A stretch of 64,000 bases of DNA, from positions 62,001 to 126,000 of the forward strand of contig CAMHMZ010000002.1 in assembly GCA_946186375.1 (NCBI GenBank), written 5' to 3'. Positions 9,402 to 31,289 of the stretch are shown here, one piece after another. Source of the stretch: an uncultured Clostridia bacterium. GTDB lineage: Bacteria > Bacillota > Clostridia > Oscillospirales > Oscillospiraceae. How positions within the stretch are numbered: position 1 is the first letter of the stretch; each line of letters begins with the position of its first letter. A program made the translations under genes and the position numbers. The notes under the pieces are model-generated. The model did not search any database. It saw nothing but the letters and a program-made list of their open reading frames with translations, and was not told where the DNA came from.

Positions 9402-10673
9402 TCAGGCAAGCCCCGGCTTGCAGGGACGCCCGATCTTTTCCCGGTAGGCAAAATACAGCTCCTCCGTCGCGAGCGCCATTTTCGTGACGGAAAAGTCACA
9501 GTCGTGCGGATAGATATACCAGGTGTCTTCCAGCGTGTTCAGATCCACGCAGTCGCCGTGCTTGCCGAGGTATTCATACTCGATATGACAGGAGTAGAGG
9601 CTCGGCACGGGCTTGAGCATCTCGAAGGGATCGCCGTCGACGTCCGTGCCGCGTACGGTAAAGCCGTTCATGTCGTGGATGAGCGTCCCCTCGCCCAGGC
9701 GGATAAAGCGTTTGGCGTTGGGCAGAGAGTCCACCGTGACCGGCAGCTCGCCCGTGGAATAGCGGCCTTCCGCGACCTCGCGGCGCACGTTCGCGCGCTC
9801 CCACTCGTACCAGTCCGGGATGTGGGAAAACTCTGTCTCCCCGTTTTCGGCACGCAGCTCGCCGAGCTCTGTCAGCTCCCAGCGCTTGCCGCATTCCCGG
9901 CAAAACAGCCGCGTCTCCTCGCTCGCCATGCGGTATTCCCTCCCGCACGCCGGGCACTGATACAGTACCTTCTGCAAGCCCTCGGCCCGTCTGGGGTACG
10001 TGATGCGGATCCCCCGCTCCTTCTGCCAGGCGTGGTCGTCATACTGGAAGGCCTGCACAAGGCGGTCGTTTATCTCGTCCGCGCTGGCCTCTTTCAGCTC
10101 CTCCGCAGTATACAGCAGCGTAAAATCGGCCTCCGTCGGTTTGACACCCCGGTCATGCAGGTTCCAGAAGGGTGAATTCACATGGTGCCCGTGGCAGATC
10201 AGCGTGACCACCGGGACGCCCAGAAGCTTGCAGAGCTTGCCGAGTGAGGCGGGCAGCACCGCGGTCGTCCCGCAGAGGGAATAACGCGCCTCGGGGTAGA
10301 TGGCGGCGATGTCGCCGTTTTTGACCACTTGTCTGAGCTGGCGTACGAGCGTGAGGTCGTTCGTGAATTTCCGCTTGCAGATGCAGCCGACCTCGCGCAG
10401 CAGCCATTCGCGGCCGATGAAGCCGTCGATCGCGACGACGTAGTTGGCTCGATGCGGATAGATGGCCCTCGTCGCCACCTTAAAATCCAGAAAGGCGTTG
10501 TGGTTGCACAACAGGACATAGGGCGGCTTGAGCCCCTCCGTGCCGTGCCGGCGGATGATAGTCTGATGCTTGAGCGTATCGGGGATACTCAGCACCCAGG
10601 TGAGCGGCCGCAGATAAAACCTGGTGGGAATAGGAGCCTTCTTCATGTCGAAACGTTCAAATGTCGTTTTCAT
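9402..10673 (-). CDS. PlsC-like 1-acyl-glycerol-3-phosphate acyltransferase with C-terminal zinc-ribbon region
   Basis: LLCNHNAFLDFKVA (HX4D-like: NHNAFLD), YPEARYS; CPACGREY...CRECGKRW zinc ribbon. Confidence 0.75.
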   Translation of the reverse strand: MKTTFERFDMKKAPIPTRFYLRPLTWVLSIPDTLKHQTIIRRHGTEGLKPPYVLLCNHNAFLDFKVATRAIYPHRANYVVAIDGFIGREWLLREVGCICKRKFTNDLTLVRQLRQVVKNGDIAAIYPEARYSLCGTTAVLPASLGKLCKLLGVPVVTLICHGHHVNSPFWNLHDRGVKPTEADFTLLYTAEELKEASADEINDRLVQAFQYDDHAWQKERGIRITYPRRAEGLQKVLYQCPACGREYRMASEETRLFCRECGKRWELTELGELRAENGETEFSHIPDWYEWERANVRREVAEGRYSTGELPVTVDSLPNAKRFIRLGEGTLIHDMNGFTVRGTDVDGDPFEMLKPVPSLYSCHIEYEYLGKHGDCVDLNTLEDTWYIYPHDCDFSVTKMALATEELYFAYREKIGRPCKPGLA

Positions 10674-10824
10674 GCTTACCACTCCTGTTTCATTATTTAC
10701 CGTTTTGTAGTATCATAACACAATGACGGTCAATAATCCACTATTATATTGGTCTCGTCAGGATCCCGTCGACCATTCCCCGCACCAGAAGAGGAGCCGC
10801 CCAAAGGCGGCCCCTCATAAAATA

Positions 10825-10945
10825 CCAAATCGAAGCCCAGCGAAGCGGGTTCGATTTGGAAAAGGAAGAAGGACGCAGCGGATGTGCAGTTTTCGCGGCT
10901 ATTACGCAAACCGTGGAAACGGAACGCAGCTGCGTTCTTCTGACG
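10825..10945 (-). repeat. 121-bp tRNA-Leu-associated element, copy 1
   Basis: Minus strand CGTCAGAAGAACGCAGC...TTCTTCCTTTTCCAAATCGAACCCGCTTCGCTGGGCTTCGATTTGG; aligns without gaps to 31291..31411 (92/121 by hand count). Confidence 0.85.
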
Positions 10946-10949
10946 TTGG

Positions 10950-11537
10950 TGCGGGTAACAGGACTTGAACTCCCTGAAGGGACTAGGACGCCGCTGCGCG
11001 CCGTCCGTCGCTGCCGCTGCCCTCCGGGCAGGCAGAACCCAGTCAACCATTCCACGCACCAAAAGAGGAGCCGCCCAAAGGCGGCCCCTCTTCTGGTGCG
11101 GGTAACAGGACTTGAACTCCCTGAAGGGACTAGGACGCCGCTGCGCGCCGTCCGTCGCTGCCGCTGCCCTCCGGGCAGGCAGAACCCAGTCAACCATTCC
11201 ACGCACCAAAAGAGGAGCCGCCCAAAGGCGGCCCCTCTTCTGGTGCGGGTAACAGGACTTGAACTCCCTGAAGGGACTAGGACGCCGCTGCGCGCCGTCC
11301 GTCGCTGCCGCTGCCCTCCGGGCAGGCAGAACCCAGTCAACCATTCCACGCACCAAAAGAGGAGCCGCCCAAAGGCGGCCCCTCTTCTGGTGCGGGTAAC
11401 AGGACTTGAACTCCCTGAAGGGACTAGGACGCCGCTGCGCGCCGTCCGTCGCTGCCGCTGCCCTCCGGGCAGGCAGAACCCAGCCAACCATTCCCCGCGC
11501 CAAAAGAGGAGCCGCCCAAAGGCGGCCCCTCCGTTGG
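10950..11537 (-). repeat. Tandem array of four 147-bp units, each with a truncated tRNA-Leu 3' end and a terminator
   Basis: Starts of TGCGGGTAACAGGACTTGAAC at 10950, 11097, 11244, 11391 and in the intact tRNA at 11538, i.e. spacing 147 each time; each unit ends with AAAAGAGGAGCCGCCCAAAGGCGGCCCCTC. Confidence 0.97.
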
Positions 11538-11617
11538 TGCGGGTAACAGGACTTGAACCTGCACGGTTGCCCACTGGAACCTAAATCCAGCGTGTCTGCC
11601 AATTCCACCATACCCGC
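11538..11617 (-). tRNA. tRNA-Leu (TAG), CCA encoded at 11535-11537
   Basis: Reverse complement GCGGGTATGGTGGAATTGGCAGACACGCTGGATTTAGGTTCCAG...GGTTCAAGTCCTGTTACCCGCACCA; anticodon loop TTTAGGT. Confidence 0.95.
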
Positions 11618-11620
11618 GGA

Positions 11621-11657
11621 TAGAAAAAAGCCTGCCGCAAATGCAGCAGGCTGTATA
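11621..11657 (-). terminator. Terminator downstream of tRNA-Gly
   Basis: Minus strand AGCCTGCTGCATTTGCGGCAGGCTTTTTTC. Confidence 0.75.
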
Positions 11658-11660
11658 TGG

Positions 11661-11733
11661 AGCGGGCAACGAGGCTCGAACTCGCTACCTCCACCTTGGC
11701 AAGGTGGCGCTCTACCGGATGAGCTATGCCCGC
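11661..11733 (-). tRNA. tRNA-Gly (GCC)
   Basis: Reverse complement GCGGGCATAGCTCATCCGGTAGAGCGCCACCTTGCCAAGGTGGAGGTAGCGAGTTCGAGCCTCGTTGCCCGC. Confidence 0.95.
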
Positions 11734-11783
11734 GTCAGCAACGGATATATATTACCACAATTTGCTGATTTGTCAAGCGGAAA

Positions 11784-13118
11784 TTACGGCGTCTCCGCAG
11801 GTTCTTCCGGTGTCGGTTCTGCCGTGGGTTCCTCCGTGGGTTCTGCCGTCGGTTCTGTTATTGGTTCTATCGTCGGTTCCGCTGTCGGTTCTGCCGTGGG
11901 CTCTGTCGTCGGTTCCGCTGTCAGTTCCGCAGTGGGCTCTGTCGTGGGCTCTGTCGTCTCGTCTGCGGGCTCAGCCTCCGCCTCTGGCTTCTCCAGCAGG
12001 TCACTGTAGCGCAGTTCTCCAAGGCAGACGGCATAGGCCGCGGTATTCCAGCGATAGAGATAATCCGACCAGAATTCCGCGTCGCTGTGCAGGAAGCCCC
12101 GCTCCAGGCCCTCCTGGATGCAGGCCGCCACATCGACATGATAGCGCTGTCCGTCGATTGTGACCGCATTCCAGAAATGCTCGTTCCAGGCCAGCTGCCC
12201 GCTGATCATCTGACATTCGATACCAAGCTGGCGGCACAGCTCCACATAGGACAGTGCCAGGCCCTCGCTGTCGGCCTTACCGAGGATCAGCGCGTCATAG
12301 AGCGAGGAGAAGCCCGGCTCCTCCGTCAGTTCGCAGTGTTCGGCCAGGTACGAGCAAGCCAGAAGCGCCGCGTGCGCCGCGTCCTGTCCCTCCGCACCGG
12401 TGTTGCTCGGCACGTCCAGGTTCACAAGCTGCGCCTTTCGGCGGATGATCTCATCCTCCGGCAGACCGTAATCCAGATCGATCTCATACAGGCGCTGGCG
12501 CCCGGAGCCGCTGTACATGTATACGTCCGTCTCAGGCTCGCCCACCGCGCACAGCGGATAGGCATGATAGGTGTCCGCCACAAGCTGCTTCATCTGCAGC
12601 GTGCTGTAGGAGCTGATATTGATGAGGATGACGATGCGCGGAAGGTTTTCCTCCATCGCGCTGCGCAGGATCTCCTCCAGCCCCGTAGCATAGGTCAGCT
12701 TCTGGATCTGATCCACCGCGGAGGCGGAGTCGACATAGCGCACATGGAGCTTGGCCTCGCCGTGCGAGACGATCGTGGAATACTCATAATCCAGCTGCTG
12801 CACGCAGTAGGCAAAGAGGGCGTCCTGAGTCCTCATCTGAGAGATGGCTCCCGTCAGATCCTCCCGGCTGCTGCCATCGTAGCTCTGGTCAAATACGATC
12901 GTGCCCTCCTCGGCGCCGGCATAGACGATACTCCGCAGCGCGCTGCGAAGCCCGGCGGCGTTTCTGACCGTGATCTTCTCGGTGACGGCAGGCTGCTCCT
13001 GCACGGGCAGCTCATAGTCGGTGACCGACACATATTCTTTTTCAAAGACGCTCCCGCAGCCTGCCAGCGAAAGCAGCAGGCATAAACTGAGCAGCGCCGC
13101 AAGTCGCCGTTTCATCAT
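11784..13118 (-). CDS. Transglutaminase-like lipoprotein with C-terminal (T/A)EPT repeat tail
   Basis: Lipobox LLSLAGCG; ALSYVELCRQLGIECQMISGQLAWNEHFWNAVTIDGQRYHVDVA; TTEPTAEPT tail. Confidence 0.8.
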   Translation of the reverse strand: MMKRRLAALLSLCLLLSLAGCGSVFEKEYVSVTDYELPVQEQPAVTEKITVRNAAGLRSALRSIVYAGAEEGTIVFDQSYDGSSREDLTGAISQMRTQDALFAYCVQQLDYEYSTIVSHGEAKLHVRYVDSASAVDQIQKLTYATGLEEILRSAMEENLPRIVILINISSYSTLQMKQLVADTYHAYPLCAVGEPETDVYMYSGSGRQRLYEIDLDYGLPEDEIIRRKAQLVNLDVPSNTGAEGQDAAHAALLACSYLAEHCELTEEPGFSSLYDALILGKADSEGLALSYVELCRQLGIECQMISGQLAWNEHFWNAVTIDGQRYHVDVAACIQEGLERGFLHSDAEFWSDYLYRWNTAAYAVCLGELRYSDLLEKPEAEAEPADETTEPTTEPTAELTAEPTTEPTAEPTAEPTIEPITEPTAEPTEEPTAEPTPEEPAETP

Positions 13119-25485: not shown

Positions 25486-27351
25486 ATGATAGAAGTGGCC
25501 GTCAAAGACCTTGTGAAGGGCTTTGAGATCGGCAATAATATTCTCGACGGACTGAGCTTTTCCGTCAACACCGGCGAGCGTGTCGGTATCCTCGGTCCCA
25601 ACGGCTGTGGAAAGACGACGCTCTTCCGGCTGCTTGTGGGAGAGCTGCGCCCGGACGAGGGCGAGATCGCCATTGCGCCGGGGCGTCGTATAGGGCTCAT
25701 CTCGCAGATCCCCGTCTACCCCGAGGGAACTACCGTGGAGGACGTGCTGCGCGAGGCGCAGCGGCGGCTCTTCACGCTGCAAAAGCGCCTGGACGAGCTG
25801 ACCGAGCGCATGGAGCGCGAGGACTCCCCCGCTCTGCTGCAGGAATACGACCGGCTCAGCGACGAATTCCGCCGTCTGGGCGGCTATGAGATGGACGCCG
25901 ACCGTAGCCGTGTGGCAAACGGCCTGGACTTGCCCCCAGCCATGCGCGAGCAGCTTTTCGACACGCTCTCCGGCGGCGAAAAGACCCGCGTCAACCTCGC
26001 CCGCCTCATTCTGGAGGACACGGATATCCTGCTGCTCGACGAGCCGACAAACCATCTGGATCTGCACGCGACCGAGTGGCTGGAGGACTATCTGCTGCAT
26101 TTTCGCGGGACGGTGCTCGCCATCAGCCACGACCGCTGGTTTCTCGACAAGGCCGTGCAGCGCTGCGTGGAGATCAGCTCCGGCCGGGCCGAATTCTACG
26201 CGGGCAACTACAGCTTTTACGTGCAGGAGCGGCAGCGCCGCTTTGAGGAAAAGCTGAAGCAGTATGAAAAGGATCAGGCCAAGATCGAGCAGCTGCAGCG
26301 CGCCGCCGAGCAGCTGCACCTCTGGGCCTTCATGGGCAACGATAAATTACATAAGCGAGCCTTTTCGATGGAGAAGCGCATCGAGAAGCTGCAGACGAGC
26401 GAAAAGCCGAAGGAAGACAAGAAGCTTTCAGTAAAGTTCAAGCAGCGCGAGTTTGCCGGGGACGAGGTGCTCGTCGTCGAGGACGTGAGCAAGAGCTTCG
26501 GCGCGCGGCAGCTCTTTGCGGGGCTTTCCATGACGGTCACGGGCGGCGAGCGCATCGCGCTCATCGGCGACAACGGCACCGGCAAATCCACGCTCGTCAA
26601 GCTGATTCTCGGCGAGGAGAAGCCGGACAGCGGCTATCTGCAGCGCGGGCCCGCCATCCGCACGGCCTATCTCCCGCAGACCGTGAGCTTTTCCGACGAC
26701 AGGCGCAGCGCCTATGACACCATGCTCTACGACGGACGCTGCCAGCCGCAGGAGGCGCGCGACCGCCTCGCCGCCTTCGGCTTTCGGGGCGAAGACGTGT
26801 TCACACCCGTGGGCGCGCTCTCCGGCGGCGAGCGCAGCCGCTTGCGCCTGTGCATGCTGATGGGCCGGGAGATCAACTTCCTCATCCTCGACGAGCCGAC
26901 AAACCACCTGGATATCGCCAGCCGCGAGTGGATGGAGGACGCCCTCTCGGACTATGACCAGACGCTCCTCTTCGTCAGCCACGACCGCTGGCTCATCGAG
27001 AAATTCGCCACGCGCATCTGGCATCTCGCCGACGGGCAGATCACCGATTTTCGCGGCGGCTACCGCGAATTCTGCGCCTGGCGCGAGAGGCAGACGGTCT
27101 TTCAGCAGAACGAGCGCAAGGAGCAGAAAAAGAAGGCCGAGCGCCCCGTCCGGCCGCAGAACACTGAAAAACAGAGCGCGCGGCTTGAGCGCGAGATCGG
27201 AAAGCTCGAAGCGAAGCTTGCCGATCTGGAACGCGAGGCGGAGGCGTGCGCCACGGATTATCAGAAGCTCATGGAGCTCGAGGAGCAGAAAAACGCCCTC
27301 AACGTCGAGCTCCTGGGGCTGTATGAACAATGGGAGGAACTCAATACATGA
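25486..27351 (+). CDS. ABC-F family ATP-binding protein
   Basis: Two Walker A (GPNGCGKTT, GDNGTGKST), two LSGGE signatures, two LLDEPTNHLD/LDEPTNHLD; coiled-coil C-terminus. Confidence 0.95.
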   Translation: MIEVAVKDLVKGFEIGNNILDGLSFSVNTGERVGILGPNGCGKTTLFRLLVGELRPDEGEIAIAPGRRIGLISQIPVYPEGTTVEDVLREAQRRLFTLQKRLDELTERMEREDSPALLQEYDRLSDEFRRLGGYEMDADRSRVANGLDLPPAMREQLFDTLSGGEKTRVNLARLILEDTDILLLDEPTNHLDLHATEWLEDYLLHFRGTVLAISHDRWFLDKAVQRCVEISSGRAEFYAGNYSFYVQERQRRFEEKLKQYEKDQAKIEQLQRAAEQLHLWAFMGNDKLHKRAFSMEKRIEKLQTSEKPKEDKKLSVKFKQREFAGDEVLVVEDVSKSFGARQLFAGLSMTVTGGERIALIGDNGTGKSTLVKLILGEEKPDSGYLQRGPAIRTAYLPQTVSFSDDRRSAYDTMLYDGRCQPQEARDRLAAFGFRGEDVFTPVGALSGGERSRLRLCMLMGREINFLILDEPTNHLDIASREWMEDALSDYDQTLLFVSHDRWLIEKFATRIWHLADGQITDFRGGYREFCAWRERQTVFQQNERKEQKKKAERPVRPQNTEKQSARLEREIGKLEAKLADLEREAEACATDYQKLMELEEQKNALNVELLGLYEQWEELNT

Positions 27352-31037: not shown

Positions 31038-31120
31038 GCCGGTGTGGTGGAATGGTAGACACCAGGGACTTAAAATCCCTTGCTGGCAACAGCGTACCGG
31101 TTCGAGTCCGGTCACCGGCA
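31038..31120 (+). tRNA. tRNA-Leu (TAA), CCA encoded at 31121-31123
   Basis: GCCGGTGTGGTGGAATGGTAGACACCAGGGACTTAAAATCCCTTGCTGGCAACAGCGTACCGGTTCGAGTCCGGTCACCGGCACCA. Confidence 0.95.
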
Positions 31121-31122
31121 CC

Positions 31123-31154
31123 AAAAAGAGCACCCCGTATGGGGTGCTCTTTTT
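31123..31154 (+). terminator. Terminator 1 downstream of tRNA-Leu(TAA)
   Basis: AAAAAGAGCACCCCGTATGGGGTGCTCTTTTT. Confidence 0.85.
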
Positions 31155-31271
31155 GGTCTCCGCCGGTGCGGGCGAGAACCGGAGCTTCGATAAGTGAGGC
31201 TCCGAGAAGACGAGCTTTGCGAAGTCTGATCGGCTAAGCCGAACTTATGCATGCGAGCGCAGCGAGTCGCT

Positions 31272-31289
31272 GTCCGGTCACCGGCACCA
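31272..31289 (+). repeat. Duplicated 3' end of tRNA-Leu(TAA)
   Basis: GTCCGGTCACCGGCACCA, identical to the last 18 nt of the tRNA including CCA. Confidence 0.9.

Follow-up and report, generated by a model that had tools for sequence, protein, structure and literature searches.

In an uncultured Clostridia bacterium of the gut, a member of the Oscillospiraceae, four units of 147 bp each (10947-11534, minus strand) lie behind the tRNA-Leu(TAG) gene, which probably form a clostridial tandem array resembling the tRNA-linked repeats (TLRs) of Escherichia coli, and which would give short structured RNAs upon read-through of the first terminator. Unless a contig is named, coordinates refer to the window, that is the whole stretch of 64,000 nucleotides that was analysed. 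With respect to the parts of this reading, confidence is high for the anatomy, an array of TLR type whose structured core is conserved, and falls somewhat short of even for the RNA mechanism taken alone, every transcriptional step of which is inferred. The reading is based on the placement of the elements behind tRNAs, their host-specific tails, the covariation and predicted fold of the units and the clustering of the cores according to the host tRNA, together with the part order and fold shared with the E. coli TLRs and the precedent of the RrA, RrB and RrF elements (PMC8144298).

The locus and its repeat unit

The features of the locus, in the order of transcription of the minus strand, are as follows.

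11749-11776, minus strand: promoter-like site TTGACA-16-TAATAT with TG ahead of the second hexamer, 5' of the tRNA-Gly/tRNA-Leu pair (candidate from a consensus scan)
11658-11733, minus strand: tRNA-Gly(GCC), upstream of tRNA-Leu(TAG) (ARAGORN, Rfam RF00005)
11535-11617, minus strand: tRNA-Leu(TAG), the host tRNA, of which every unit repeats the last 24 nt (ARAGORN, Rfam, tail copies)
11388-11534, minus strand: unit 1, 147 bp, tRNA-proximal (TRF, sequence comparison)
11500-11534, minus strand: first terminator-like GC hairpin, in unit 1 (sequence)
11406-11485, minus strand: core of unit 1 (covariance model R1)
11388-11410, minus strand: tail copy TTCAAGTCCTGTTACCCGCACCA of unit 1 (exact sequence match)
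11241-11387, minus strand: unit 2, 147 bp (TRF, sequence comparison)
11353-11387, minus strand: terminator-like GC hairpin opening unit 2, as likewise every unit (sequence)
11336-11355, minus strand: TGGTGCGTGGAATGGTTGAC in unit 2, the tRNA acceptor and T-stem copied imperfectly and in inverse orientation (predicted fold)
11094-11240, minus strand: unit 3, 147 bp, identical to unit 2 (TRF, sequence comparison)
10947-11093, minus strand: unit 4, 147 bp, identical to unit 2 (TRF, sequence comparison)
11259-11338, 11112-11191 and 10965-11044, minus strand: cores of units 2-4 (covariance model)
11241-11263, 11094-11116 and 10947-10969, minus strand: tail copies TTCAAGTCCTGTTACCCGCACCA of units 2-4 (exact sequence match)
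10759-10816, minus strand: fifth-unit remnant, made up of the hairpin and the first part of the inverted copy (58 bp, 90% identity)

The preliminary description had announced four exact 147-bp units. Both the array and its period are recovered by TRF as a single array (10947-11558, period 147, 4.2 copies, 98% matches, no indels); exactness holds for units 2-4, which are mutually identical, and not for unit 1, which differs from them at 6 of 147 positions including its first three bases, in agreement with the remark that the unit adjoining the tRNA is slightly different. The fourfold recurrence of the tRNA 3' end is likewise confirmed, since the 23-nt tail occurs exactly five times, once in the tRNA itself (11535-11557) and once per unit. 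Within its own genome the full 147-bp unit is confined to the array, the other match being the 58-bp remnant of the fifth unit; a dispersed repeat of unrelated sequence is inserted between this remnant and the array. Upstream, an intrinsic-terminator-like hairpin was called between tRNA-Gly and tRNA-Leu (11629-11652, minus strand) and no promoter-like site was called in this gap by the consensus scan, so that tRNA-Leu may itself need read-through. Further upstream, a low-complexity 12-bp repeat (11805-11958) encodes the Thr/Glu/Pro-rich C-terminal tail of an adjoining 444-aa protein.

Each unit opens with a terminator-like hairpin, which is followed by the tRNA 3' end in inverted form, then by the three-hairpin core and lastly by a direct tail copy of 24 nt. 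The terminator previously assigned to each unit is retained as a strong GC-rich hairpin (GAAGAGGGGCCGCC-TTT-GGGCGGCTCCTCTTTT), but it is followed by a T4 tail only and was not called by the consensus terminator scan. The inverted copy TGGTGCGTGGAATGGTTGAC provides the 5' arm of a predicted closing stem, and the core consists of a CTGCC..GGCAG hairpin with an inner stem, CGAC, a GG..CC hairpin, TAG and a TCCC..GGGA hairpin. The 3' end of the unit, GTTCAAGTCCTGTTACCCGCACCA, is an exact copy of the last 24 nt of tRNA-Leu(TAG), from the T-loop to CCA. The core is located in the T-arm of the tail copy, immediately 5' of the T-loop; the GGCAG ahead of it is similar to the 5' T-stem strand, so that the 3' part of the tRNA is present a second time with the core in its T-arm, and the same arrangement is clearly visible in the tRNA-Thr unit of the same genome, GCCAG-(core)-ATTCGAATCTGGC. 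The preliminary description, with its spacer of about 90 nt between a terminator and the next tail copy, had missed the inverted tRNA 3' copy and the conserved core, as well as their recurrence behind other tRNAs of the genus.

In the predicted fold of the unit (-56.1 kcal/mol, z -2.4), the inverted copy pairs with the tail copy and closes around the three hairpins. The duplex between the inverted arm of unit 2 and its own tail copy reaches -31.1 kcal/mol and surpasses those formed with all 19 tail copies from other tRNAs. In relatives the inverted copy can be exact over 14-16 nt, TGGTGCGGGTAACAGG behind tRNA-Leu(TAG) and TGGAGCTGCTGGGC behind tRNA-Thr, and the closing stems are weak at loci with a truncated tail copy. 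The fold bears on the decoy of tRNA 3'-processing enzymes that the preliminary description raised as a possibility; in a wider form, the units would mimic the acceptor/T-arm minihelix and so attract these or CCA-binding enzymes. The exact T-loop-to-CCA copy that ends every unit speaks in favour of a decoy, but its CCA is predicted to pair with the TGG of the inverted copy, and many relatives have kept the core but not the CCA portion of the tail copy, which weakens the decoy and makes it very unlikely.

With a relaxed E-value, the Rfam search of region 10000-12500 gave tRNAs alone as matches above the gathering threshold. Sub-threshold matches to Qrr, mir-3158 and other families were dismissed as chance; hammerhead and T-box candidates, for which the models used were those of Rfam alone, were dropped on inspection by eye because their defining motifs are missing. 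The matches listed from phage and plasmid collections (distant blastn) do not extend beyond the tRNA-Leu portion of the query, and the tRNA-like ends known from relatives (GGTTCGGATTTGGATTG..GGTGCACCA) are absent from the genome.

Recurrence, constraint and descent of the core

Copies of at least 14 nt of the host tail occur downstream of 4 of the 25 tRNAs of the genome, a phage-like contig being left out, whereas the tails of other tRNAs gave such copies in 0 of 800 comparisons, so that a chance origin is excluded; the loci of this control were partly picked for holding the core, and 4/25 is the unbiased figure. No tail copies of this length were found behind the tRNAs of two related genomes (0/15 and 0/21). 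Two of the four loci carry the core, the second core unit standing behind tRNA-Thr(GGT); the tail copies of tRNA-Pro(TGG) and tRNA-Leu(TAA) surround different hairpin inserts. The tRNA-Leu(TAA) locus of the window (31038-31289, plus strand) thereby provides a second TLR-like unit with a differing insert: behind the tRNA come a terminator-like hairpin, an inverted tail-like stretch, further hairpins and, at 31272-31289, an exact tail copy of 18 nt. As to contig C1 binned with this genome (G000, L089-L092; 378 kb), tens of tRNA genes are scattered there amid genes of phage type (DNA polymerase, RNase H, nuclease and clamp-loader-like ATPase, according to PHROGs), and the contig probably represents the genome of a huge phage.

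When 85,488 species genomes were scanned for an exact core pattern, 13 stretches were recovered. Of these, 11 belong to Clostridia and mostly follow a tRNA-Leu, tRNA-Thr or tRNA-Pro gene, and two belong to one Gordonibacter; a core-pattern search of viral contigs gave zero matches. The Gordonibacter stretches belong to two similar dispersed repeats located off tRNAs (L120, L122) in Candidatus Gordonibacter avicola, an actinobacterium. Covariance model R1 matches 31 of 101 genomes of the genus versus 1 of 297 other genomes of the order, and since the majority of the genus genomes have no match, the element is dispensable. Where a tRNA on the same strand is directly upstream, the core mostly starts 45-65 nt behind it, and the hosts comprise eleven isoacceptors for eight amino acids. 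Full-length copies finish with the tail of the very tRNA that hosts them; in many relatives the tail copy is truncated. Core copies are few per genome. Tandem arrays were also found behind Ala(GGC) in G094 (period 150), Leu(TAG) in G033 (136) and G082 (104), and Leu(TAA) in G089 (113-117). In this respect, an assembly artefact, to which a metagenome-assembled genome of 133 contigs and 84% completeness with three identical units might be prone, is most improbable, for unit 1 and the fifth-unit remnant differ in sequence and the arrays of these four other genomes are independent. The exact copy number of the array could still be off.

In addition, the core module resides in the 3' arm of palindromic repeats unrelated to tRNAs, including C62:190-263 of the same genome, and once within a type A repeat. 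The latter dispersed repeat, CGTCAGAAGAAC..GTCCTTCTTCC followed by a terminator-like hairpin, has a copy in the window (10817-10946, minus strand) and ten matches in the genome, on contigs C7, C49, C6, C2, C23, C3 and C33; in the genus it often lies directly 3' of the CCA of a tRNA or of a tail copy. Its two paired ends change in concert, so that it too may be a structured RNA.

The core structure is under constraint. Among 62 distinct cores, standard pairs occupy 95% of the pair cells, and 226 pair cells are doubly changed, against 67.8 upon shuffling and at most 52 with slid partners, in an alignment that was fitted to the structure model and hence favours pairing; a MAFFT alignment of 16 sequences not fitted to structure still yields 42 doubly changed cells against 14.0 upon shuffling. 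The CGAC and TAG joining strands are invariant in the 16 best cores. Mutation that corrects palindromes could also add paired changes, and covariation alone is no proof of an RNA function. That the repeats encode a protein akin to Tpr, the protein proposed for E. coli rtT, is extremely improbable: 147 is a multiple of three and open frames of 293, 276 and 242 aa run across the array, but any frame is broken by the periods found in relatives (136, 104 and 113) and by changes of core length that are not multiples of three, and the substitutions track base pairing.

With respect to descent, cores behind the same tRNA in different genomes are the most alike (similarity 0.744, versus 0.644 for different tRNAs of one genome and 0.618 when both differ), which points to a mainly vertical descent along with the host tRNA. 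The occurrence of the module in unrelated palindromes and in a type A repeat makes some mobility, present or past, likely. The main rival explanation holds that the core is a functionless MITE- or REP-like palindromic module which settled in hairpins, both T-arm copies of tRNAs and further palindromes, was multiplied here through slippage or unequal crossing-over and plays no part as an RNA. It accommodates the non-tRNA palindromes, the type A repeat, the two Gordonibacter copies distant from tRNAs and the patchy distribution, but fits poorly with the few copies per genome and the strong placement behind tRNAs, the strong covariation with nearly invariant joining strands, and a clustering that follows the host tRNA and not the genome; on balance it is an unlikely explanation, though one of some weight. 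REP/BIME sequences, MITEs and the Rickettsia palindromic elements are short, palindromic, nested and at times tandem; unlike them, the window element is few in copy, bound to tRNA 3' ends and provided with arms derived from the host tRNA.

The direct copies running from T-loop to CCA also recall the target duplications of integrases, and the units might accordingly be att-site duplications left as a footprint of mobile elements integrating at the tRNA 3' end. A locus of G089 (C38, about 26480-26800; L126), where a lone displaced tRNA-Thr 3' half is found with a terminator and a core unit, looks like the attR end that integration into the anticodon loop would be expected to leave. However, integrase and cargo are absent between the copies, and units of 100-150 bp with one conserved core common to eleven isoacceptors are hardly what integration would leave, so that little credence can be given to this origin.

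Comparison with the tRNA-linked repeats of E. coli

Such repeats are said to have been known since 1978, those of E. coli having reportedly been treated by Egan and Landy in 1978 and by Rudd in 1999. The E. coli TLRs comprise rtT/tyrTV, proK, lysV and argQ/Z/V, tyrT being a member of the group (PMC8144298). The resemblance to tyrT noticed in the preliminary description is borne out by the K-12 tyrV, proK, lysV and arg loci, which share the layout of the window array, and by the matching predicted folds of proK and argZ. In both cases the array sits directly behind a tRNA gene and the unit ends in a copy of the 3' end of that tRNA, 24 nt long here and 18-19 nt long at tyrV, proK, lysV and argQ/Z/V. 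Four copies and a remnant, with several loci in the genome, compare with 1-5 copies per locus in E. coli. At proK and lysV the order of the parts is the same and the terminator is repeated 3' of the unit. An inverted T-arm copy, which opens the lysV unit as an exact 13-nt stretch, and a multi-hairpin insert at the T-loop also occur on both sides. A predicted closing stem around hairpins is found in the window unit, in proK and argZ, and partly in tyrV; minimum free energy folding gave no closing stem for the lysV unit.

In contrast, the insert is located just before the T-loop in the window and inside the T-loop in E. coli, about 5 nt apart, the core sequence is not detectably related and the phylum is different. 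Model R1 detected no core homology at the K-12 TLR loci (best score 6.9 bits, E 1.1). Judged on these grounds, the window element displays the hallmarks stated for TLRs, and shared descent with the E. coli TLRs is not indicated.

The closest functional precedent is that of RrA, RrB and RrF, E. coli TLRs located between the rrn dual terminators, which are produced by read-through of the first terminator and subsequent processing and whose structure is retained across genera (PMC8144298). Like them, the window unit is flanked by two terminator-like hairpins and ends with a copy of the 3' end of the upstream stable RNA; unlike it, they follow 5S rRNA and bind Hfq and CsrA in vitro (PMC8144298). 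They are the only E. coli TLRs with a reported function (PMC8144298), and the silence on the others favours the functionless palindromic module. The sRNA sponge 3'ETS-leuZ of E. coli derives from a tRNA trailer (PMC8144298), as would the candidate RNA of the window, but leuZ has neither a repeat nor a tail copy behind it. In agreement with the earlier remark that no equivalent was known to be described in Clostridia, no clostridial TLR was found in the literature searched, the accounts found dealing with E. coli and other Enterobacteriales.

Possible formation and role of the unit RNAs

In the proposed mechanism, the array would consist of non-coding elements inhabiting the trailer of the tRNA-Gly/tRNA-Leu operon, whose transcription would in part pass the weak first terminator. 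The unit RNA would then fold in a cloverleaf-like manner, closed by the inverted copy paired with the tail copy, and trimming at the tail copy or a stop at the next hairpin would free RNAs of about 120-147 nt. Their amount would track the transcription of the tRNA, and the serial hairpins would halt residual read-through. Unequal recombination between identical units would have made the tandem copies, the element being inherited mainly along with its host tRNA. Among the roles suggested earlier, an sRNA array is plausible, and a recombination footprint accounts for the copy number but leaves the core unexplained.

The TLR-array reading is weakened by the lack of homology between R1 and the E. 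coli loci and of a closing stem at lysV, by the cores located away from tRNAs, in Gordonibacter too, which fit a mobile palindrome, and by the many genus genomes with no match and the weak closing stems at truncated tails. A broader proposal, rather unlikely as a whole, would make of the core an undescribed class of structured RNAs of gut and rumen Oscillospiraceae living in tRNA trailers, with the tail of the host tRNA as closing stem and processing signal and a regulatory role in which the RNA level reports tRNA transcription; the E. coli and clostridial TLRs would then be parallel inventions.

As a TLR-like array, the locus represents a second, distant lineage with TLR architecture but a different core. 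Its dozens of natural variants behind eleven isoacceptors offer comparative data beyond the reach of E. coli and distinguish the parts that are kept (inverted copy, tail copy and hairpins) from the variable ones. Owing to covariance model R1, a structured element with no Rfam match in region 10000-12500 can now be searched for, and the variants make the choice between an RNA function and a selfish palindrome testable.
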